Position numbers and translations under genes: made by a program. A stretch of DNA of 64,000 bases, taken from positions 784,063 to 848,062 of the forward strand of contig NZ_QVMT01000001.1 of assembly GCF_003418935.1 (NCBI RefSeq), given 5' to 3'. Position 1 is the first letter of the stretch; every line of letters starts with the position of its first letter. Below are positions 1 to 43,814 of this stretch, in pieces. This DNA is from Emticicia sp. C21. GTDB lineage: Bacteria; Bacteroidota; Bacteroidia; Cytophagales; Spirosomataceae. The notes beneath the pieces were generated by a model that was not told the DNA's origin, did no database searches, and saw nothing but the letters and a program-made list of their open reading frames with translations.

Positions 1-273
1 GCCTGCTGCCAAATTCTGCAAGGCTCTGATACCATTTTCTACCAACCAGAATTTTGCTTCCGGAAAATGTTCGCTTAGGTCCGGCTTGGCTGCTTTTTTC
101 TCAACAACAAACTCACGGATACCTTTTTCATAGAGTTCTTCAATAAAATTATGTCCGTCGTGGCGTTCTCCTTTAATGGCAAAAAAGATGCTTTGCTGAG
201 GTTGAGAAACAAAACGACTATCAGTCAATAAGACAGTAGCCTTCGTAATAATAGGTTCAGAAAAGAAATTCAC
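1..273 (-). CDS. MurF-type ligase, N-terminal fragment (probably bifunctional MurF/alanine racemase)
   Basis: 5' end of a gene that leaves the window to the left; 91 codons are visible. The product would join D-Ala-D-Ala to UDP-MurNAc-tripeptide in the cytoplasm during peptidoglycan synthesis. Seen: the Mur-ligase N-terminal pattern 'VLLTDSR' followed about 15 residues later by 'FFAIKGERHDGHNFI' and 'LYEKGIREFVVE', the uridine-binding domain of MurF. In Bacteroidota this domain is often fused to an alanine racemase; the racemase half would lie outside the window, so the fusion is inferred. The start is a GTG (codon at 273-271): an in-frame TAG lies just upstream and there is no ATG before the conserved block. 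Confidence 0.75.
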   Translation of the reverse strand, partial: MNFFSEPIITKATVLLTDSRFVSQPQQSIFFAIKGERHDGHNFIEELYEKGIREFVVEKKAAKPDLSEHFPEAKFWLVENGIRALQNLAAG

Positions 274-12186: not shown

Positions 12187-12473
12187 GCAGCGTTTGAGTT
12201 TGGCTATTATACTGTTTGCAATTTAGATAAATTCGCTTTTATTTAGAGAAGTTATTTGAAGTTTTATTGTGTAATCGTGTGTAGCGATTTTTCAAATCGT
12301 TCTGTGCTAAATGCGATGAGTATTTGAATCATGAAATCTTTTACTTTAAGTAAGTGCAATTTTTAAATTCATACCTCAACAGTACGATTCTACGCAAAAC
12401 CTCCCAAAAATCTTTGAAAACCCAATGTAAAGACGGAAATTTACTCGATTTGAATCCACATTATAACAAATTT
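12187..12473. other. intergenic region between M1 peptidase and repeat locus
   Basis: About 290 bp, AT-rich. An open frame running into the repeat ORF begins at 12354, but its first 40 codons have no similarity to the paralogous copy near 43.8 kb, so I treat it as non-coding. I see no RNA gene or clear promoter. Confidence 0.4.
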
Positions 12474-12764
12474 ATGGCTCACAAGAAAAAGAAGATAAAT
12501 ACAGTTGGTAGAGGCATGACTGACTACAGACCATCCACTCAAGCGGAACCTGAAAAGGTTACCATTATGGTGGGAACCTTTTTGAAAGAGGGTGGCTTCC
12601 AGCAGGTAGTTTCGGAGTCAGCAAAAGTACCAGCCACTAAAAAGGCGCAGAAAAAGGTTACCTGCACGGTGGGAACCTTTTTTAAAAAGGAGTCTGTGAA
12701 AGTACCAGCTACCAAAAAGGAAGCCAAAAAAGGTGGACGCTACGGTGACCACCTTTTTGAATGA
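12474..12764 (+). CDS. repeat-encoded small basic protein, paralogue of the 43.5-kb locus, frame-disturbed
   Basis: 96 aa if read as it stands. No known family. Start chosen at 12474 because from here the sequence parallels the other copy (43814 downward): both open with M-x-x-x-K-K-K-I-N, then a TDY, then the repeated 'KVT-x-MVGTF' units. It is rich in Lys with a period of about 25 residues. In the third unit an A-run has six A instead of the expected five; the frame changes to 'GGRYGDHLFE' and stops. With five A the frame would give 'VTTFLNEG' and run to a TAA at 12814-12816, directly abutting the deacetylase ATG at 12817. It may be a real protein, a pseudogene or a by-product of a DNA repeat. 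Confidence 0.35.
   Translation: MAHKKKKINTVGRGMTDYRPSTQAEPEKVTIMVGTFLKEGGFQQVVSESAKVPATKKAQKKVTCTVGTFFKKESVKVPATKKEAKKGGRYGDHLFE
12553..12758. repeat. palindrome array, family 1, three units
   Basis: Palindromes at 12553-12582, 12651-12682 and 12727-12758. Arms are AAAAGGTT(ACC) and (GG)GAACCTTTT with a centre like ATTATGGT. The third has arms AAAAAGGTGG / CCACCTTTTT, still perfectly complementary although the bases differ from the other units. Units 2 and 3 begin 76 bp apart, one more than the 75 bp period of the second locus because of an extra A. Confidence 0.8.
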
Positions 12765-22254: not shown

Positions 22255-22356
22255 AATCTAAAATTGAATTAGTGAATTCACAAATAAGTGAATAATTTTA
22301 CTGCAAATTTACCGAATTTTAAGCAGAAACTGCTATACTAAATTTAAACAGTAAAT

Positions 22357-23304
22357 ATGAAAAATAATTCCCCTATGTACCTAAGCGGTAAGGAAAATCC
22401 TGCAGCCTCTTCTGTTCTGATTATTCTGGGCCTTTTTTTAGTAAATTTTCTATTTTTAGGTAGTCTGATTCAGATTATAGTCATGTTGGCCTCGGGAGTT
22501 ACTTTGCAGGGAATGCTAGAAAGCGGTGGAGACTTCACAAAAATGCCAAACGGATGGTTGAGCATGATTGTGGGTCAAGGCTTAGGTTCATTTGTAGGGT
22601 TTATTGGCACCGCCTGGTTATACTGGCGAATTATTGAAAAAAAGCAATGGAGCGATTTAAACTTTAAGCCTTTTCCGAAAGCCAGAGTATTTTTCATGAT
22701 TATTCTGATTCAGGTGGTTTTTATGGGCTTTAATGGCTGGTTGCAGGAGATTAATGAAAATATTGTTTTCCCTGAATCAATGAAAGGTTTAGAAATATGG
22801 TTGAAAGGTATGGAAGATCAACTAGCCAAAGCCACCAAGTTTTTTACCACTTTTACCTCTTTCTGGCAGTTTCTTCTGGCCTTTCTGGTAATAGCAGTGA
22901 TAGCAGGTATTGGTGAAGAACTGGTTTTCAGAGGTTTATTGATGCGTAAACTGTTTTTAGGTATCAAAAATATTCATGTGGCTATCTGGTTGGCAGGGTT
23001 CATTTTTGCTGTCATCCACTTCCAGTTTTATGGTATTTTGCCGCGCATGATGCTGGGTGTTTTATTTGGCTATTTATATTATTGGACGGGCAATATCTGG
23101 GTACCTATTCTGGCACATATTTTCAATAATGGTCTGGCTATCATTATTATGTATCTGTATAATCTGAAAATAGTAAAAACTGACCTCGAAAGCATAGATC
23201 ATATGCCTATGCCTATCGTTCTTTTTTCGTTGGTAGCAACTATCGGCTTACTATTTTTGTTCAGAAATTATATGGAATCACAATCTATTGAATCGCAATC
23301 ATAA
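22357..23304 (+). CDS. CPBP family intramembrane glutamic endopeptidase
   Basis: 315 aa with about eight transmembrane segments. Seen: the catalytic motif 'GIGEELVFRGLLM' (EExxxR-type), the His in 'VIHFQFYG' and the C-terminal 'WVPILAHIFNN', the CAAX-protease/bacteriocin-processing signature. Family members process prenylated proteins or peptides, or confer self-immunity. It runs head-to-tail into a 57-aa membrane protein and then, 28 bp further on, the HPr-kinase-like gene, so it may be a part of the RiPP-like locus (inference). Confidence 0.88.
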   Translation: MKNNSPMYLSGKENPAASSVLIILGLFLVNFLFLGSLIQIIVMLASGVTLQGMLESGGDFTKMPNGWLSMIVGQGLGSFVGFIGTAWLYWRIIEKKQWSDLNFKPFPKARVFFMIILIQVVFMGFNGWLQEINENIVFPESMKGLEIWLKGMEDQLAKATKFFTTFTSFWQFLLAFLVIAVIAGIGEELVFRGLLMRKLFLGIKNIHVAIWLAGFIFAVIHFQFYGILPRMMLGVLFGYLYYWTGNIWVPILAHIFNNGLAIIIMYLYNLKIVKTDLESIDHMPMPIVLFSLVATIGLLFLFRNYMESQSIESQS

Positions 23305-23308
23305 CGAT

Positions 23309-23479
23309 ATGGAAAATTCAAATAAAAATCCCCCTTGGTATAGAAGGATTGACAAAAATAAAATTATAGCCTGGTTTAAACGACTTGGCTGGGCTGGTTT
23401 TTTCTTTTTTCTTATCAAGGGCTTAGTTTTATATGTACTTCTTCCTTATCTGATAGCTAAAGGTTTTTTGAGTAAATAA
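23309..23479 (+). CDS. small single-span membrane protein
   Basis: 56 aa from the ATG at 23309, which lies 4 bp after the stop of the CPBP gene; an in-frame start 21 bp upstream overlaps that gene and is less likely. A basic soluble N-terminus ('PPWYRRIDKNKIIAWFKRLG') precedes a hydrophobic segment of about 25 residues. I know no function; the same 'FKRLGWAGFFFFLIKG' arrangement occurs in small Bacteroidota alanine/tryptophan-rich membrane peptides. Its position in the CPBP-kinase run suggests the same transcript. Confidence 0.6.
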   Translation: MENSNKNPPWYRRIDKNKIIAWFKRLGWAGFFFFLIKGLVLYVLLPYLIAKGFLSK

Positions 23480-23507
23480 GCGTTTCTGATAATCTTCAAA
23501 ATCATCG

Positions 23508-24437
23508 ATGAATTATTATTTTGCCTATGGCCTGAGCATAGCAACTGACATTCATTTCCCCGAATTATTTGTTATTTCTCTTACTACTACTCCTGATGTA
23601 ACTGTTTGTATAGGAAAAATTCCTGTACCCATTTCAGAAAAAGCAACAGAAGAACAACCCAATATTTTCATTACCCCTACCGAATATTTACTGCACATAG
23701 ACAATATTGCTTCGTACTATGCTGCCAACGGCAACGAAGTAATCATTGAGCCTTTACCCGATGCCGACGAAAAAAGTGTAAGGCTTTTTTTCCTCTCTAA
23801 TACTATGGCGGCCATCTTATACCAGAGAGGGTTTATTCCGATGCATACCTCGGCAATTTATGACGAAGATGGCATTGTTTTATTCATGGGAGATTCGGGT
23901 GCAGGTAAATCAACTACCATTGCAACCTTACAAGCCAAAGGATACCGTATTTTTTCGGATGATATATGTGTACCCGTGCAGGAAGACGGCATTTTAAAAG
24001 CCTTTGCGGCTTACCCGATGATGAAACTTTGGAAAGATGCTTTCGAAAAAGTAGGTATTGATTCGTATAAGGAAGAAAACAGAATCAGGCCCGAGATAGA
24101 AAAGTATAACAGGTCTTTTTATGAGTCTTTTGATATTCAGGCGCACCCTATCAAACAGATTTTCATTCTAGAAAAAGACCCAACCCTTGATAAAAACGAG
24201 ATTCGAACTCAATCTATACAAGGTATTGAAGCCTTCAAGCATATCCAATATTATGCTTATCGCCTACCCTTTGCAGAGGCTATGGACAGAAAAAAGGATT
24301 ACTTTGCCATAATAAGTGCGCTATCAAATCAGATTCCGGTTAGATTAATCAGTCGCCCTGATGATAATAGTACTTTCAATGATTTAACTGGTTTCATTGA
24401 GTCTACTCTGGGTAAAACCACTGTTAAAACCAGCTAA
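23508..24437 (+). CDS. HPr-kinase-like P-loop kinase of a RiPP-type locus
   Basis: 309 aa. The N-terminal 100 residues are a beta-rich domain. The C-terminal half has the HPr kinase/phosphorylase fold: His113 in 'MHTSAI', Walker A 'GDSGAGKST' (128-136), and 'FSDDICVP' (D151-D152). Homologues sit in lasso-peptide clusters, where the paeninodin kinase phosphorylates the C-terminal serine of the precursor, and in HPr-rel loci. Here the gene faces B2 and B1 (stop-to-stop gap of 9 bp) and three precursor-like genes lie beyond. There is no true HPr-domain gene in the window, so a role in catabolite control is less likely than peptide modification (inference). Confidence 0.85.
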   Translation: MNYYFAYGLSIATDIHFPELFVISLTTTPDVTVCIGKIPVPISEKATEEQPNIFITPTEYLLHIDNIASYYAANGNEVIIEPLPDADEKSVRLFFLSNTMAAILYQRGFIPMHTSAIYDEDGIVLFMGDSGAGKSTTIATLQAKGYRIFSDDICVPVQEDGILKAFAAYPMMKLWKDAFEKVGIDSYKEENRIRPEIEKYNRSFYESFDIQAHPIKQIFILEKDPTLDKNEIRTQSIQGIEAFKHIQYYAYRLPFAEAMDRKKDYFAIISALSNQIPVRLISRPDDNSTFNDLTGFIESTLGKTTVKTS

Positions 24438-24446
24438 TGGCAACTA

Positions 24447-24896
24447 TTAGCTAAAGAACGAATGTACCTGATATTGACTAAAATCACAGTGCCCAGTTAT
24501 GACATGGCTCTGACTTATTAACCATGCATGCCCTTCGAAATGATTATTTTCTCCTTTCTTAAATCCGATATACAATACACTGTTAATGGCTCTTTTGTGC
24601 AATAGAATTTTGGCCGTTAAAGCCTGTGTATAGCATTCTGTAGGCCAAGGTGTATATTTATCGCAAAGTTTTAGGGCTTTTTGTGTTTCTACCAGATAGA
24701 TATCCTTTTCAGAAGGAATCTGAGTCTCAGACACTTGCAGATTACGATTACCCAACCATCGGGAAACCTTATTGAAAGGCATAAACAACAATGAGAATTT
24801 TACAATAGCCGAAGTGCACACTGCCTCGGCAAAAAGTCTTTTCCGCAAAGCAGGCATTTTTATAAAACTATCCGCTTTGTTAAGCAGTTTTTTCAA
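24447..24896 (-). CDS. lasso-peptide biosynthesis B2-type cysteine protease
   Basis: 149 aa, matching the transglutaminase-like B2 family (Transglut_core3), which removes the leader from a RiPP precursor. Seen: the catalytic Cys in 'PWPTECYTQALTAKILL' (C88), the His in 'EGHAWL' (H123), and a third polar residue in 'HCDFSQY' (D138). The N-terminal 45 residues hold the helix typical of these proteins. Follows the PqqD gene by 13 bp on the same strand, so B1 and B2 are one transcript with B1 first, the canonical order for split B proteins. Confidence 0.92.
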   Translation of the reverse strand: MKKLLNKADSFIKMPALRKRLFAEAVCTSAIVKFSLLFMPFNKVSRWLGNRNLQVSETQIPSEKDIYLVETQKALKLCDKYTPWPTECYTQALTAKILLHKRAINSVLYIGFKKGENNHFEGHAWLISQSHVITGHCDFSQYQVHSFFS

Positions 24897-24909
24897 TACA
24901 AGGCATTGT

Positions 24910-25194
24910 TTAGTTTTCTACCAACTGAATCATTTTTTCGCCAATCATTTTATTCAGATATGGCAGAGTTTCATCTATGCATTGTTTTTCGGCTACCTCA
25001 TAAATCTCCATCAGTTCTTTTACCAATTCCTCAAAACTCTTCTGTTCTTCTAACAAATTCCAGATTTCAGTACCTACACTGTTTAGTCCTATAAAATCTC
25101 CACTGGCTGTATTCATCATAACTGCTTCTTCTCCCAGACTATTTACGATAAACTGCTCCTCATTCCGCTTCAACTGCGATGTCAAACTAATCAT
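24910..25194 (-). CDS. PqqD/B1-type leader-binding protein (RRE)
   Basis: 94 aa from the ATG at 25194; a TTG at 25215 would add seven residues. PqqD-family fold (RiPP recognition element): a three-stranded sheet ('QFIVNSLGEEAVMMN', 'GDFIGLNSVGTEIW') and helices ('SFEELVKELMEIYEV'). These proteins bind the leader and hand it to the B2 protease or another enzyme. It is divergent from the first precursor-like gene across a gap of about 200 bp. Confidence 0.9.
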   Translation of the reverse strand: MISLTSQLKRNEEQFIVNSLGEEAVMMNTASGDFIGLNSVGTEIWNLLEEQKSFEELVKELMEIYEVAEKQCIDETLPYLNKMIGEKMIQLVEN

Positions 25195-25397
25195 TCTATA
25201 AATATTAAATATCAACTAAATAATTTTGGCTACAATTTTGATACTACATTTCCATTAATCAGTGCAATATGATAATTTTTTAGCATTCAAGTATCGAAAT
25301 ACAAATTAAAAATTTCAAGCACTATTGTTTCTTACGATAGAAATCTGTAAGATTATACGCTGAAATATTTCACCTTACACTCTCAATTTTTATTATT
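25195..25397. promoter_or_regulatory. divergent control region between B1 and the precursor genes
   Basis: About 200 bp, very AT-rich. No perfect TTTA-N19-TAnnTTTG promoter found on either strand; TAATTTTT at 25273-25280 is a weak -7 candidate for the rightward genes. Holds whatever starts transcription both ways. Confidence 0.4.
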
Positions 25398-25550
25398 TTG
25401 AAAACTGCTAATTTAGCTCCAAAACCTAAGTCCAATGCCAAAAAAAAGGATTGGCAAACTCCTAAATTTGAGCAAATTGATGTAAAATCAAACCATGATT
25501 CTAAGCTATTTCCTGGCATGAATCTTCTTGACCCTCATAGTATAGGTTAA
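25398..25550 (+). CDS. RiPP precursor-like peptide 1
   Basis: 50 aa. The start is a TTG at 25398; the frame is open upstream but has no ATG, and from the TTG the peptide opens M-K-T like peptide 2, and the 20 bases before both starts are similar. Leader-like part: 'KDWQTPKFEQIDVKS' (the W-x-x-P-x-[LF] pattern, like the YxxPxL motif read by lasso B1 proteins). C-terminal part: 'LFPGMNLLDPHSIG'. Compared with peptides 2 and 3, the invariant residues are K-x-W, P, E-x-I, V-K-S, G-x-N-L-L-D-P-H. Not a known lasso core: the Asp is not at position 7-9 from any Gly, Ala, Ser or Cys. Confidence 0.75.
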   Translation: MKTANLAPKPKSNAKKKDWQTPKFEQIDVKSNHDSKLFPGMNLLDPHSIG

Positions 25551-25601
25551 TTTTAAAGTTGTTTTATTCAAAATCTTTTTTAACCTTTCAATTTTACTAT
25601 C

Positions 25602-25751
25602 GTGAAAACCATTCGCTTTCCGCAAAAACCCAATTGTTCAAAAAAGACCTGGATTACACCAATATTAGAGCGTATTGATGTAAAGTCAAAAACAGACGCT
25701 AGACTATTATCCGGCTTTAATCTTCTTGACCCTCATGGAATAATGTCGTGA
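25602..25751 (+). CDS. RiPP precursor-like peptide 2
   Basis: 49 aa, GTG start at 25602 (opens M-K-T as in peptide 1). Leader-like part 'KTWITPILERIDVKSKT'; C-terminal part 'LLSGFNLLDPHGIMS', ending in a serine. Contains one Cys (Asn-Cys-Ser, in the leader). 51 bp after peptide 1; the bases before the start (TTTCAATTTTACTATC) resemble those before peptide 1. Likely a tandem duplicate. Confidence 0.78.
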   Translation: MKTIRFPQKPNCSKKTWITPILERIDVKSKTDARLLSGFNLLDPHGIMS

Positions 25752-25792
25752 GTTTAATTTATTTTTTTATCCACTTTATTAGTTTAGGAAAT

Positions 25793-25930
25793 ATGTATTC
25801 TTCAAAGAAAAAAAATGCCACACCAAAAAAGGTCTGGGCGATACCATCTTTAGAAGTTATTGAAGTTAAATCAAAGACTAGTTCTAAGATATTACCTGGA
25901 ATTAATCTGCTTGACCCTCATGCAAGTTAA
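25793..25930 (+). CDS. RiPP precursor-like peptide 3
   Basis: 45 aa, ATG at 25793 (an in-frame ATG at 25748 would add 15 hydrophobic residues with no counterpart in peptides 1 and 2). Leader-like part 'KVWAIPSLEVIEVKSKT'; C-terminal part 'ILPGINLLDPHAS', again ending in serine. No Cys. 41 bp after peptide 2. The upstream 'TTTTTATCCACTTTA' recurs before the nucleotidyltransferase-family gene. Confidence 0.8.
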   Translation: MYSSKKKNATPKKVWAIPSLEVIEVKSKTSSKILPGINLLDPHAS

Positions 25931-26055
25931 TTAGGTAAGTTTTGAAAACTGAGATTCCTATTGCCATTTGTCAGGATTAACCATCCAGCAAGTGGCAATA
26001 CTGACAATTAAAGCCCTAATTTAAAAAATATCCTTTTTATCTACTTTACTTAAAA

Positions 26056-27222
26056 ATGCTTTCCGTTGAACTCCAGTTTTTGATAGAGTGTTGCAAAATA
26101 AGCCTCTTACAAGCACCTGTTACTAAGCTTCTAGACATTATTGAAAACCATAAAGTTAACTGGGAGAAGCTGTATAAAATGCTTGCCTATCATAGCATCA
26201 GACCAACGGTATATTCGGCGCTAAAAGGAATTACATCAGAAAAAATCAATGCTGACTTCTTTAGCCTCCTAAATCAGGAAGTAAAAATAAAAAGTGCACA
26301 TAGTTTATTTATGTCGGCTGAGCTGACCCGAATTCAGAAACTTTTTAGTGAGCATCAGATTCCCTTTATTCCTTATAAAGGGCTCACCTGGAGCAAGATT
26401 TTATACAAAAAATCTTTCAGAGAGGGGGCTGACATGGATTTTCTGATTGATAGAAATAAAGTTTTTGAGGCACTGCACCTATTGAAAAAAGATGGTTACG
26501 AGCTAGGACATTTATCAGAATATACTAAAAAATATACCCCCGAAGATTTACTGAAAGCATTAATTGAAACAGAACGGGTTGAAATGCCTTTGGTTAAAGA
26601 AAATGCCTTTAAGTATATATTTAAATTTGACTTCCACTGGGAATTAGTGATGAAACCCTTCAGCTACGGCTTCGCTACCAGCGAGTTATTTACTGATAAA
26701 TTTGATGAACAGGAAAGGATGCTGCTAATCATTATTTTACATAATGGTAAAAAAGAAGCGTGGACAAAACTGAAATATATTTCAGACTTACTATGTTTCG
26801 TTGATCAGTATGGTCAGGATTTTAACTGGGATTTATTCCTTGAAAAACTTAACAACTATTCTATCGAAAAAAGCTTATTTAAGGGTTTGGCGCTGATCAA
26901 TTTTTTCGTCCCTATAGCAGATCTCACTACTTTTAATAGAGCAATACCAGAATATGATGCATTAAATATTTCTTTCTGGGAAGAAGCCATTCCTTATGAA
27001 ATAAGTAAAAAAGCGAGAATTAATTTTTTCAGATTAAAGTTTAGTTATCACAAAAACATAAAAGAATCTTACTATTGCATTACTAATTTTATGAGATACC
27101 TGTCTTATCCCAACCCTAGTGGAAACAGATTGATTGTGTTTCCTGCATCGTATAAATTATTAAATCTGTCAAGCTCACTCTTGAGTTACCTTTATTTCAA
27201 TACGTTTAATAGAAAAAATTAA
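26056..27222 (+). CDS. nucleotidyltransferase-family protein (NTP_transf_5)
   Basis: 388 aa. N-terminal half: helical bundle, then the nucleotidyltransferase core with 'IPFIPYKGLTW', and 'FREGADMDFLID' giving the paired acidic residues D126 and D128 that bind metal in this fold. The C-terminal half is helical and ends with the hydrophobic 'LLNLSSSLLSYLYFNTF'. Family members (PF14907) occur in lasso-peptide and HPr-rel loci next to HprK-like kinases and PqqD proteins; the modification is not settled. Last gene of the precursor operon, 125 bp after peptide 3. Confidence 0.85.
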   Translation: MLSVELQFLIECCKISLLQAPVTKLLDIIENHKVNWEKLYKMLAYHSIRPTVYSALKGITSEKINADFFSLLNQEVKIKSAHSLFMSAELTRIQKLFSEHQIPFIPYKGLTWSKILYKKSFREGADMDFLIDRNKVFEALHLLKKDGYELGHLSEYTKKYTPEDLLKALIETERVEMPLVKENAFKYIFKFDFHWELVMKPFSYGFATSELFTDKFDEQERMLLIIILHNGKKEAWTKLKYISDLLCFVDQYGQDFNWDLFLEKLNNYSIEKSLFKGLALINFFVPIADLTTFNRAIPEYDALNISFWEEAIPYEISKKARINFFRLKFSYHKNIKESYYCITNFMRYLSYPNPSGNRLIVFPASYKLLNLSSSLLSYLYFNTFNRKN

Positions 27223-27358
27223 TCCATATATCCTCATTATTTGCCGTTAGTTGATTAAATGCTACTAATCAGCCTTTTTTATTTTTTTTATCCTCAGAAG
27301 AATTTTATTTTCGTTAGTCCAAATCCGCTCTCATAGTTAATCATTCAATCGCAGATTC

Positions 27359-28606
27359 ATGATAAAATTTTTCTTTTTAGCATTTGAGAGTTTCCGGTTT
27401 GCCTGGCAGGCGCTCAGGTCTAATTTATTCCGTACAATGCTCTCTTTAATGGGTGTAACGGTAGGTATTTTCTCTATTATAGGCGTGCTCACCATGGTAG
27501 ATTCGCTAGAAGCCAACATTAAAAATAGCCTTAATTCTATTGGTACAAATGTAATTTATGTACAAAAATGGCCCTGGTTATTTACTAATGGCGATTACCC
27601 GTGGTGGAAATACTTTATGCGTCCGGAGCCTAAATATAATGAATTTAAGTATCTGCGAGAAAATCTGGAACATGCGCAGGCAGGTGCCATGATGGATTTT
27701 GCTGGGGATGTAACCTGCCGTAAAGGTAGTAATAGTATCAATGCTTTGTGTCAGGGCATTACCTATGAGTTTAATGAAATCACAGAAGTACCGATTGTTA
27801 ATGGACGTTATTTTGCCTCTCAGGAAATAGAATCAGGGAAAAATGTAGCCGTATTAGGTGCTGAAATTGCTGATGCATTATTCCAGGATACTGATCCGAT
27901 TGGAAAAACATTTAAAATGAAAGGGCAGAATATTACTGTGATTGGGGTGCAGGAAAGGAAAGGTAAACAGATTGCCGATTTTGGTGGAGAGCCAGACCAG
28001 AAAGTAATTATTCCGTTCTTATCTCATAAAAGAATCTTTTCTTCCGGCGAATTGACTGGCGATATTGTTTTTAAAGGTTATGAGGGAGATGAAGGGCTTT
28101 TTGAATTGGAGGGTGAAATAACAGGCTTATTACGTACCAAAAGAGGTTTACGACCTACTCAGGAAGATAGTTTTGCTCTGAACCGCCCTGAGGCGGCCGC
28201 AGCCATGCTGGGTCAGTTATTCAGTACATTACGTGTCAGTGGGTTTGTTATCGGTATTTTTGCTTTATTAATTGGTGGATTCGGTATTGCTAATATTATG
28301 TTCGTGACAGTAAAAGAACGCACCAATATTATTGGTATTCAGAAATCACTTGGTGCTAAAAACTACTTTATTCTATTTCAGTTCTTATTTGAGTCTATAT
28401 TCCTTTGTGTTGTAGGTGGGCTTTTCGGACTCTTACTGGTATATATTTTAAGTTTCTTGCCTTTAGGCTCCTTAGATATTATTTTAAGCTACGGCAATAT
28501 TATTCTGGGGATTGGTGTCTCTAGTACTATTGGTATACTTTTCGGTATTATACCTGCCTGGCAGGCTGCCCGTTTAGACCCTGTAATTGCCATCAGAAGT
28601 AAATAA
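27359..28606 (+). CDS. ABC transporter permease, MacB/FtsX type
   Basis: 415 aa. Seen: an N-terminal basic helix and TM1 ('LSLMGVTVGIFSIIGVLTMVD'), a large periplasmic MacB-type domain (residues about 45-290), then three TMs with 'MFVTVKERTNIIGIQKSLGAK' and the C-terminal 'IPAWQAARLDPVIAIRSK', all signatures of FtsX/MacB permeases. No ATPase or membrane-fusion partner lies next to it. It could export the peptides of the preceding locus, but this family is also found as a stand-alone gene near tsaB, so the link is open. The 136-bp gap to the nucleotidyltransferase holds no clear promoter. Confidence 0.88.
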   Translation: MIKFFFLAFESFRFAWQALRSNLFRTMLSLMGVTVGIFSIIGVLTMVDSLEANIKNSLNSIGTNVIYVQKWPWLFTNGDYPWWKYFMRPEPKYNEFKYLRENLEHAQAGAMMDFAGDVTCRKGSNSINALCQGITYEFNEITEVPIVNGRYFASQEIESGKNVAVLGAEIADALFQDTDPIGKTFKMKGQNITVIGVQERKGKQIADFGGEPDQKVIIPFLSHKRIFSSGELTGDIVFKGYEGDEGLFELEGEITGLLRTKRGLRPTQEDSFALNRPEAAAAMLGQLFSTLRVSGFVIGIFALLIGGFGIANIMFVTVKERTNIIGIQKSLGAKNYFILFQFLFESIFLCVVGGLFGLLLVYILSFLPLGSLDIILSYGNIILGIGVSSTIGILFGIIPAWQAARLDPVIAIRSK

Positions 28607-28628
28607 ATTCCAATTTTTCGATACTTTC

Positions 28629-28677
28629 TTACACGATTGAGTAATTTTGCCCTTTCAAAAATTGCTCAATCGTGTAA
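28629..28677. repeat. 20-bp inverted repeat ending on the tsaB start codon, AGTGATT-word family, copy d
   Basis: Left arm 28629-28648 begins TTACACGATTGAG; right arm 28658-28677 ends CTCAATCGTGTAA; 19 of 20 positions pair, loop of 9 nt. The last A of the right arm is the A of the tsaB ATG, so a folded mRNA would bury the start. Confidence 0.85.
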
Positions 28678-29375
28678 TGGCTATTATTCTCAGTATCGAA
28701 ACTTCTACTAAAGGATGTTCAACCGCTATCCATCAGGATGACCAATTGCTGGCCTTGAGCGAGTTATTCCATGAAAAATCTTCTTCCGGAATGCTCACTA
28801 CTTTAATTCAGCATGTTGTAAAAGTTTCCGGTCTTGAATTTTCCAATCTTGATGCCATTGCAGTAGCCAAAGGCCCCGGCTCTTATACAGGCTTACGAAT
28901 TGGCGTTTCTACCGCCAAAGGTCTATGTTTTACACTTGATAAACCTTTACTTGCTGTGAATACCCTACAAGCTTTAGCTTGGCAGATTCATAGTATAGTG
29001 CAATCAGTTAGTGGCAATGAAATGCTTTGCCCTATGCTTGATGCGCGCCGTATGGAAGTCTATTGTGCTTTATATAGGGCAGATACATTAGAGCAAGTCT
29101 CTCCTACTGAAGCGAAAATCATTGACGAAAATTCGTTTGCAGAGATATTAGAAACGCAGAAAATTATCTTCTTTGGCGATGGGGCAGCTAAGTGTAAGGA
29201 TGTTTTAGGAAAATATACTAATGCGGTTTTCTTAGAGCAAACCATCAATCCATCAGCGAAGGGAATTGGTATTCTGGCCTACGAAGCTTATCGGAATAAT
29301 CAATTTGAAAATGTAGCAGATTTTGAGCCTTACTATTTAAAGGAGTTTATGGCTACTACGCCCAAGAAGGTGTAA
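28677..29375 (+). CDS. tsaB: tRNA threonylcarbamoyladenosine biosynthesis protein TsaB
   Basis: 232 aa. TsaB forms the complex with TsaD and TsaE that adds t6A to ANN-decoding tRNAs. Seen: 'ILSIETSTKGCSTAIHQ' at the N-terminus, 'DAIAVAKGPGSYTGLRIGVST' (the Gly-rich ATP-like loop, in the pieces 'KGPGSYTGLR' and 'AKGLCFTL'), and 'MLDARRMEVYCALY'. Start at 28677 (MAIILSIETS) puts the conserved beta strand at residue 3; an upstream ATG at 28647 lies inside the left arm of a hairpin and has no homology. Confidence 0.93.
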   Translation: MAIILSIETSTKGCSTAIHQDDQLLALSELFHEKSSSGMLTTLIQHVVKVSGLEFSNLDAIAVAKGPGSYTGLRIGVSTAKGLCFTLDKPLLAVNTLQALAWQIHSIVQSVSGNEMLCPMLDARRMEVYCALYRADTLEQVSPTEAKIIDENSFAEILETQKIIFFGDGAAKCKDVLGKYTNAVFLEQTINPSAKGIGILAYEAYRNNQFENVADFEPYYLKEFMATTPKKV

Positions 29376-43332: not shown

Positions 43333-43447
43333 TTATCTGTTGATTGAAAGAAAATAGATTAGTGAGGTTTGAGTGAAAATATATTCCCGTTTGTTCCACC
43401 ACAGTTGAGGCTGATGGTTTTTGAGCCAGAATATTTGCTCCTCATTC

Positions 43448-43736
43448 AAAAAGGTTCCTACCGTATTGGTAACCTTTTCTTGCTCTGTTTTAATAGTTTT
43501 TACTCTGATATCCTCCAAAATTACCTATTGAAAACCATCGATATGCTCCTATTAAAAAAGGTTCCTACCATATTGGCAACCTTTTTCGGCTGCGTTTTAG
43601 TAGATGGCCCTTTTACAGACTTCTCATTCAAAAAGGTTCCCACCATATTGGTAACCTTTTTCGGCTCTGTTTTAGTGGTTGATACTTTTACAGACTCCTC
43701 ATTCAAAAAGGTTCCCGCCATATTGGTAACCTTTTT
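43448..43736. repeat. palindrome array, family 1, four units
   Basis: Palindromes at 43448-43478, 43555-43586, 43630-43661 and 43705-43736, arms AAAAAGGTT and AACCTTTTT with the centre CCCACCATATTGGTA or close. Spacings 75, 75 and 107 bp; the last gap has an insertion of about 32 bp. Related in sequence and, in reverse, in orientation to the array at 12.55 kb. Confidence 0.85.
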
Positions 43737-43814
43737 TTGTTCCGGTTGACAGGATATTATATAGTCAGTCTTGCTTCTGTCAGCTATATTTATCTTCTTT
43801 CTCGCTGCGGTCAT
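43521..43814 (-). CDS. repeat-encoded small basic protein, paralogue of the 12.5-kb locus
   Basis: 97 aa read on the minus strand, no known family. Starts M-T-A-A-R-K-K-I-N, has TDY near residue 18, then three tandem units of 25 residues with 'KKVTNMVGTFLNE' as core. It parallels the protein from 12474 over its first 30 residues and the DNA is similar over about 90 bp. After the third unit the frame ends; the fourth unit near 43.45 kb lies in another frame. Coding status is uncertain: the palindrome may be the unit selected. Confidence 0.35.
   Translation of the reverse strand: MTAARKKINIADRSKTDYIISCQPEQKKVTNMAGTFLNEESVKVSTTKTEPKKVTNMVGTFLNEKSVKGPSTKTQPKKVANMVGTFFNRSISMVFNR

Follow-up and report, generated by a model that had tools for sequence, protein, structure and literature searches.

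An Emticicia locus with lasso-type maturation enzymes, a kinase, and a nucleotidyltransferase, and no detectable cyclase: a candidate source of linear phosphorylated peptides

What would the enzymes that mature phosphorylated lasso peptides make in a genome in which no lasso cyclase can be detected? The question is raised by a locus in a 64,000-nucleotide stretch of Emticicia sp. C21 DNA, hereafter the window (G000:C1:784063-848062 in our catalogue), which belongs to an assembly of 6.64 Mb in 33 contigs that is 99.94% complete. Within 3.7 kb (window 23508-27222) are packed an HPr-kinase-like protein (K), a cysteine leader peptidase (B2), a PqqD-type leader-binding protein (B1), three paralogous precursor peptides, and a nucleotidyltransferase-like protein (N). 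A sequence-only reading of the window had reported this gene set without a lasso cyclase (LasC) and had proposed either that the cyclase is encoded elsewhere or that the product is a cleaved, modified linear peptide of an uncharacterized class. Family assignments and intact catalytic residues confirm the gene set, and the absence of a cyclase at the locus is likewise borne out. We favor, with about even confidence, the view that the locus is a cyclase-free offshoot of the machinery for phosphorylated lasso peptides and that its product stays linear.

All genes of the locus are intact open reading frames (ORFs) with their catalytic residues in place. K (309 residues, window 23508..24437, plus strand) is the putative precursor kinase. 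Its H113, P-loop K134, and D151 are conserved in 100%, and D152 in 98%, of 62 aligned sequences; a His-Lys-Asp-Asp motif is described as characteristic of lasso kinases in the accessible text of PMC9266682. K matches HPr-kinase models below their cut-offs only (TIGR04352, 30.9 bits of 200; PF07475, 18.8 of 33.3) and HPr kinases among PDB sequences weakly (best E-value 0.0006), so that its HprK-like status rests on these weak matches together with the conserved residues. B2 (149 residues, TTG start, window 24447..24896, minus strand) is a transglutaminase-like cysteine leader peptidase that matches NF033537 (lasso_biosyn_B2) at 70.1 bits (cut-off 33) and PF13471 at 61.1 bits. Its C88 and H123 are present in all 45 aligned B2 sequences, and its matches among PDB sequences are weak and to photosystem I only (best E 0.24). 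The sequence-only reading had raised the matter of further B2 genes; in the whole genome, the locus B2 is the sole PF13471 match at E ≤ 0.001. B1 (101 residues, window 24910..25215, minus strand), the leader-binding protein carrying a PqqD-type RiPP recognition element (RRE; RiPP, ribosomally synthesized and post-translationally modified peptide), matches PF05402 (PqqD) at 56.3 bits (cut-off 23.4) and NF033536 at 68.1 bits, under the cut-off of 80. Its nearest PDB chains are 9x90_B, a lasso PqqD-family chaperone (E 8.8e-10), and TbiB1, 5v1u (E 3.3e-7). Its true start may be an internal ATG giving MISLTSQL. N (388 residues, window 26056..27222, plus strand) matches PF14907 at 129.8 bits (cut-off 31.2) and has no match among PDB sequences up to E 1. 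Residues K108-G109, R122, and the D126xD128 pair are conserved in 100% of 48 aligned sequences. Residue 230 of N (window 26743-26745), beside a conserved His, is Asn, where 95% of the 48 relatives have His; the related N protein of Emticicia sp. BO119 has the same Asn.

The three precursors lie on the plus strand between B1 and N. Precursor A (50 residues, TTG start, window 25398..25550) ends in ...WQTPKFEQIDVKSNHDSKLFPGMNLLDPHSIG, precursor B (49 residues, GTG start, 25602..25751) in ...WITPILERIDVKSKTDARLLSGFNLLDPHGIMS, and precursor C (45 residues, ATG start assumed, 25793..25930) in ...WAIPSLEVIEVKSKTSSKILPGINLLDPHAS; two of the three end in Ser. Precursor B is 58% identical to A over its residues 8-47 and 58% identical to C over residues 9-46. 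Among NCBIfam models, the three match the paeninodin family NF033524 alone, at 17.4, 14.4, and 20.7 bits, below its cut-off of 27. The leader motif W..P.[LIVMF][EQ]..[EDIV] occurs among the window's ORFs shorter than 90 residues (463 ORFs of at least 30 residues were listed) in these three neighbors only, and their grouping as precursors is therefore not attributable to chance. One further match in the genome, on C23, has E 0.9 and 33% identity and was not taken as a precursor.

Neither PF00733 nor a profile of ten lasso cyclases detects a lasso cyclase in the 6.64-Mb genome. The single PF00733 match (23.6 bits, cut-off 21) lies in an ORF of 365 residues and was rejected as a lasso cyclase, as it covers only model positions 24-125 of 354; the neighbors of this ORF are, we take it, HisF/HisH-like, in surroundings that look like a polysaccharide locus. 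The LasC profile returns only the same ORF (E 0.003) and one that is presumably PurF-like (E 0.013). When the ten lasso cyclases were searched against the locus by tblastn, one matched weakly inside N (E 0.003, 26% identity over 175 residues). This match was set aside as chance, given that the other nine match nothing there, and the same search found no LasC relic elsewhere in the locus. The option of a cyclase encoded elsewhere is thus dismissed for this genome, as PF00733 and the LasC profile find no lasC gene that could partner the locus; it holds true of a related genus, g32.

That genus also shows that a missing neighboring cyclase is not remarkable in itself. B2 is present in 67 of 150 sampled family genomes, from which 77 B2 loci were taken with flanks of ~8 kb, contig ends permitting; a locus counts as a cyclase locus if one of six lasC-like queries matches by tblastn within ~8 kb. 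B1, B2, K, and N stand together without an adjoining cyclase in many of these loci, most prominently in g32, where all 16 B2-bearing genomes sampled carry a PF00733 gene away from the B1-B2-K-N genes. In 15 of the 16, a Y..P precursor adjoins this distant cyclase (none was seen in L118); L122 carries the same peptide as L121, and L132 the same as L120. The g32 systems are split lasso systems, of which each half alone would look incomplete. The sequence-only reading had named B1/B2 kept without the short peptides as evidence against its proposal. This arrangement does occur in g32, yet it does not refute the proposal, because lasso-like peptides adjoin the distant cyclase in those 15 genomes. 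The window genome stands apart from g32 in having no detectable cyclase anywhere. The g32 split systems comprise L036-L051, L058, L061, L062, and L117-L132; two operon loci that were read out, L039 and L061, share flanking genes. G147, one of the g32 genomes, also contains another B2 locus, L109, in which a weak cyclase-like gene is present.

Within Emticicia, the window genome was compared with ten others, among them Emticicia sp. BO119 (G074) and Emticicia sp. 21SJ11W-3 (G049). Strong LasC-profile matches occur in 4 of the 11 genomes (two in G074, six in G049, one in G027, and two in G123) and are absent from the window genome, G102, G085, G094, G128, G062, and G110, many catalogued genomes being drafts in which "no match" carries less weight. 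Weak part-matches (E 0.003-0.008) account for the hits in the window genome and G094 and for a second hit in G027. G102, which is 94% complete, has K, B1, B2, N, and two precursors and matches neither PF00733 nor the LasC profile. Two less complete genomes of the wider family, G023 (78%) and G035 (63%), have no PF00733 match and were left out of the comparison. G102 looks like a second cyclase-free case.

The locus lies between a CPBP-protease gene and a MacB-like permease gene. In G074 the same flanks enclose K (72% identity), B1 (76%), two precursors, and N (71%); in G094 they enclose nothing. Across the syntenic loci of G074 and G049, K and a precursor are kept, whereas B2 is kept in neither and B1 in only one. 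No local cyclase is found at this site in G074, G049, or G094, and neither K nor a precursor was seen within ~1.5 kb of the permease in the remaining seven genomes of the genus. The interval from the CPBP-protease gene to K also holds a small ORF that looks like a membrane protein (window 23309-23479); it is found in G074, in G049, and at the empty site of G094 as well and is therefore independent of the locus.

In a tree of 66 kinases, those of the window, G074, and G049 form one clade (100/99), which nests in a clade of 20 rows (97/91), 15 of them from loci with a cyclase-like gene. The tree is midpoint-rooted and contains long branches, none in the window clade. Because its kinases are nested among lasso-locus kinases, the locus appears to be derived from within lasso-type machinery. 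The G102 kinase falls in a separate group, in which a cyclase-like gene is present at the locus for 10 of the 12 rows, so that the cyclase-free state of the two Emticicia genomes need not have a common origin. Between the window and G074, the ratio of nonsynonymous to synonymous substitutions (dN/dS) is 0.09 for K, 0.13 for B1, and 0.10 for N, and 0.30-0.54 for precursor pairs with finite dS; these are pairwise counts with high enzyme dS (1.1-2.0), and pairs with G049 are mostly saturated. With G049 as the outgroup, K has 15 unique changes in the window and 17 in G074 and is thus not faster in the window lineage. These values indicate purifying selection on K, B1, and N, which fits a long-kept function; a recent loss would also be compatible.

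All six precursors from the three syntenic loci share W..P..E.I, in the form W..P.[LF]E.I[DE][VIL], and an LDP motif whose Asp is at W+26. A profile of the six, run against 222 family genomes, gives full-length matches only in the window genome, G074, and G049, and weaker, mostly partial ones (E 4e-5 to 0.003) in G049, G027, and G526. None of the six has an acid at W+22..24. With positions counted from W or Y, such an acid is present in 72 of 85 peptides that match the pattern in cyclase loci and in 13 of 14 in separate cyclase places (L117-L136). The comparison set consists of 122 short ORFs collected by pattern without curation, some of them plainly false, all grouped and none removed by hand; the six syntenic precursors were counted apart, as the pattern caught one of the two in G074 and the window locus lies outside the set. 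A B2 cut between W+15 and W+16 would make the LDP Asp core residue 11. The C-terminal residue of the six is Ser in four, Gly in one, and Tyr in one; position W+12 is Ser in five and Thr in one. The idea that a C-terminal Ser always accompanies a kinase was rejected, as several K loci, L055, L059, and L081 among them, have other terminal residues. Peptides that end in LDP are also found farther afield: in G102, beside a cyclase in G109, and in G049, where the Asp is at W+23 (L172); one of the two G102 precursors has no Asp or Glu past W+11.

These data suggest a pathway in which B1 would bind the W..P leader of each precursor, as its homology and the shared motif imply. K, aided by B1, would then place one or more phosphates on a precursor hydroxyl, the C-terminal Ser being the first candidate acceptor and the Ser/Thr at W+12 the second. 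B2 would remove the leader near the T at W+14, and N may attach a hexose or a nucleotide to the phosphate, by analogy with PsmN. The remaining core of ~15-17 residues would stay linear, because no lasso cyclase was found genome-wide within the reach of the searches. The cleaved and phosphorylated or nucleotidylated linear peptide of the sequence-only reading thus stands as the best remaining reading, with the chemistry deduced from the genes; the description of its class as uncharacterized does not stand, since linear phosphorylated peptides of Bacillota have already been described (PMC13381572).

Several observations weigh against a linear, functional product. All chemical steps are inferred, and the product itself is a prediction from the genes. 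No position of the six precursors holds a strictly conserved phosphate acceptor. The spacing from W to the acid is only suggestive, as 13 of the 85 cyclase-locus peptides lack the acid too. Among peptides in other G049 cyclase places, 6 of 15 have it and 9 do not, and 3 of 6 peptides in loci without a cyclase have it. An LDPLS-like peptide end occurs beside the cyclase of G109 (L098), so the tail alone does not mean a linear product or exclude lasso use elsewhere. The MacB-like permease is present in 11 of 11 genus genomes, locus or no locus, and is therefore no exporter special to this one.

The strongest of the competing explanations, which we consider unlikely though far from negligible, is that this is a decaying lasso locus that has lost its cyclase, whose other genes have not yet broken, and from which nothing mature is made. 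Erosion among the syntenic copies argues for it and against a working pathway: in G074, N has one in-frame stop and B2 survives only as a 22-residue relic at its expected place (50% identity, E 1e-4 against the 220-bp gap), G049 is reduced to K (56% identity) and one precursor, and the G094 site is empty. The patchy distribution of LasC in the genus points the same way. However, no ORF of the locus is broken in the window, the catalytic residues are in place, three precursors persist, and K shows no acceleration. The lack of a local cyclase in all three syntenic loci suggests that the locus has probably been without one for a long time, and G102 looks like a separate cyclase-free case.

Improbable, in our estimate, is that the precursors are destined for a lasso or lactam formed in trans, by LasC in the relatives and by another ATP-dependent ligase in the window strain. 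G074 and G049 do encode cyclases elsewhere (two and six), which also tells against a linear product there, since their peptides could be cyclized in trans; g32 separates B1-B2-K-N from its cyclase, and the G049 LDP precursors with Asp at W+23 (L172) would fit an 8-residue ring. The window genome, however, has no detectable LasC. Lasso rings have 7-9 residues, whereas a cut two residues after W+13 would place the Asp at core residue 11 and leave a tail of only 4-6 residues. Very doubtful is an HPr-rel-type system of unknown product, whose peptides would act as carriers or regulators and would not be natural products; the sequence-only reading had called this gene set typical of lasso-peptide and HPr-rel loci, but the HPr-rel label is not supported. 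Weak matches of K to HprK_rel_A (TIGR04352, 30.9 of 200) and of B1 to PqqD_rel_X (TIGR04353, 18.9 of 35) speak for such a system, yet both are far under the cut-offs. B2 and the precursor leaders indicate the lasso branch, and in the kinase tree K falls among those of lasso loci.

We therefore favor the cyclase-free offshoot with a linear product because no LasC is detected, the ORFs are intact, syntenic loci also lack a cyclase, and linear phosphorylated RiPPs have a precedent in Bacillota; the kinase clade, the dN/dS values, the unaccelerated K, the Asp at W+26 without an acid at W+22..24, and G102 add to this preference. A broader proposal, which we put forward tentatively and think somewhat on the doubtful side, is that linear phospho-RiPPs arose from lasso systems by cyclase loss independently in Bacteroidota, with B2 kept and a precursor class of their own that has a conserved LDP[HD] tail, and in Bacillota. 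Within Emticicia, the cyclase was perhaps lost twice, once in the lineage of the window, G074, and G049 kinases and once in that of G102. If independent loss is the right account, what selection maintains in this branch would be the phosphorylation and decoration of the peptide and not its knot.

Some features of the surroundings are noted for completeness. No RNA element reaches the gathering threshold in window 22300-28700. Promoter-like sites number 18 versus 16.2 expected, and terminator-like sites 5 versus 2.4 expected; a strict promoter pattern, which we take to be of the Bacteroidota type, has zero matches. Two ORFs elsewhere in the window, 12354-12764 and 43369-43749, have internal repeats (KKVPTILVTFFG... 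and KVTCTVGTFFKK...), possibly a repeated DNA element. Among lasso loci of Emticicia and related genomes, L088, L095, L098, L099, L173, and L175 often carry a presumed sulfotransferase-like gene (WLASYPKSGNTW), and in L095, L098, and L099 a protein that we assume to be of a CGMCC/CGLCC type stands beside the kinase or cyclase. In L097, L100, and L101, a single cyclase is accompanied by an array of some ten or more distinct W..P precursors, and a G.DGG-like stretch is found in many of these. L088 (12604-16334) has six tandem similar ORFs, five starting MDEYIG, beside a lasso-cyclase-like gene and a precursor; these presumably resemble phage-tail-collar proteins.

Loci of this kind are set aside by surveys. 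According to the accessible text of each, RRE-Finder treats lasso-type RREs without a peptidase and a cyclase as possible false positives (PMC7470986), and a rumen survey classes clusters without lasA, lasB, or lasC as incomplete (PMC7533575). Among the entries listed by searches of an open-licence library, judged from titles and the openings of abstracts, none reports a cyclase-free B1/B2/K/N system in Bacteroidota. Intact B1, B2, K, and N in a genome with no detectable cyclase, with syntenic counterparts in sister species, offer a natural setting in which to ask if linear peptides can be substrates of the kinase and nucleotidyltransferase. The locus also bears on what the nucleotidyltransferase transfers, which the accessible text leaves open for pseudomycoidin (PMC9266682), and on whether linear phospho-RiPPs arose repeatedly from lasso machinery. 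The observation is well supported, and the product is plausible as deduced from sequence.

How does the locus compare with known systems? The closest parallel is the Linear Polyphosphorylated Peptides (LPPs) of Bacillota (Popov et al., May 2026; PMC13381572), described in the accessible text as linear phosphorylated RiPPs whose cyclase-free pathways use an RRE together with an HprK-like kinase and an NTP transferase. Paenibacillus LPP genes expressed in B. subtilis are reported to yield a core of 45 residues that is linear and polyphosphorylated and that a SipW-like peptidase cuts; no effect of the NTP transferase was seen in the test host, and the final product was not identified. LPPs and paeninodins are described there as restricted to Bacillota. 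The Emticicia locus shares with LPP systems a discrete RRE, an HprK-like kinase, an NTP transferase, short precursors with an aromatic-xxP leader motif, and the lack of a cyclase, and the LPP intermediate is linear. It differs in having the cysteine peptidase B2 where LPP systems have a SipW-like signal peptidase (none was found with Pfam and NCBIfam among the six larger proteins of window 22357-28606) and only the MacB-like permease next door where they have an MsbA-like exporter. The LPP leader is YxxPxVLxHQxIxFETxxS with Ser3 as acceptor, whereas the Emticicia leader is W..P..E.I, with no conserved Ser3.

Among lasso systems, paeninodin (PadeA/B1/B2/C/K) shares the WxxP leader, B1, B2, and a kinase with the His-Lys-Asp-Asp residues, whereas the Emticicia locus lacks the cyclase, an acid at the usual spacing of W+22..24, and an ABC exporter of its own. 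PadeK is reported to phosphorylate the linear precursor at its C-terminal Ser, and PsmN is tied to one or two hexoses on the phosphate, in the accessible text of PMC9266682 and PMC8498205. The pseudomycoidin pair PsmK and PsmN resembles K and N as a kinase/nucleotidyltransferase pair, matched here by description and not by PF14907 membership; its product, however, is a phosphorylated, hexosylated lasso peptide and is thus cyclized. For BsfA of Bradymonas, the accessible text reports that BsfK phosphorylates Ser3 and that BsfB1 strongly assists (PMC10368454), so that B1 aids both kinase and B2, and the acceptor need not be a C-terminal Ser; this is a lasso cluster, with a penultimate Ile in the leader and a Ser3 acceptor that is not conserved in Emticicia. 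The HPr-rel-A system (TIGR04352, TIGR04353) has HprK-like and PqqD-like proteins in common with the locus, at scores far below the cut-offs. The Emticicia locus would work like an LPP system, although it is not one by the features stated for LPPs in the accessible text, and it is not a lasso system, because it has no cyclase.

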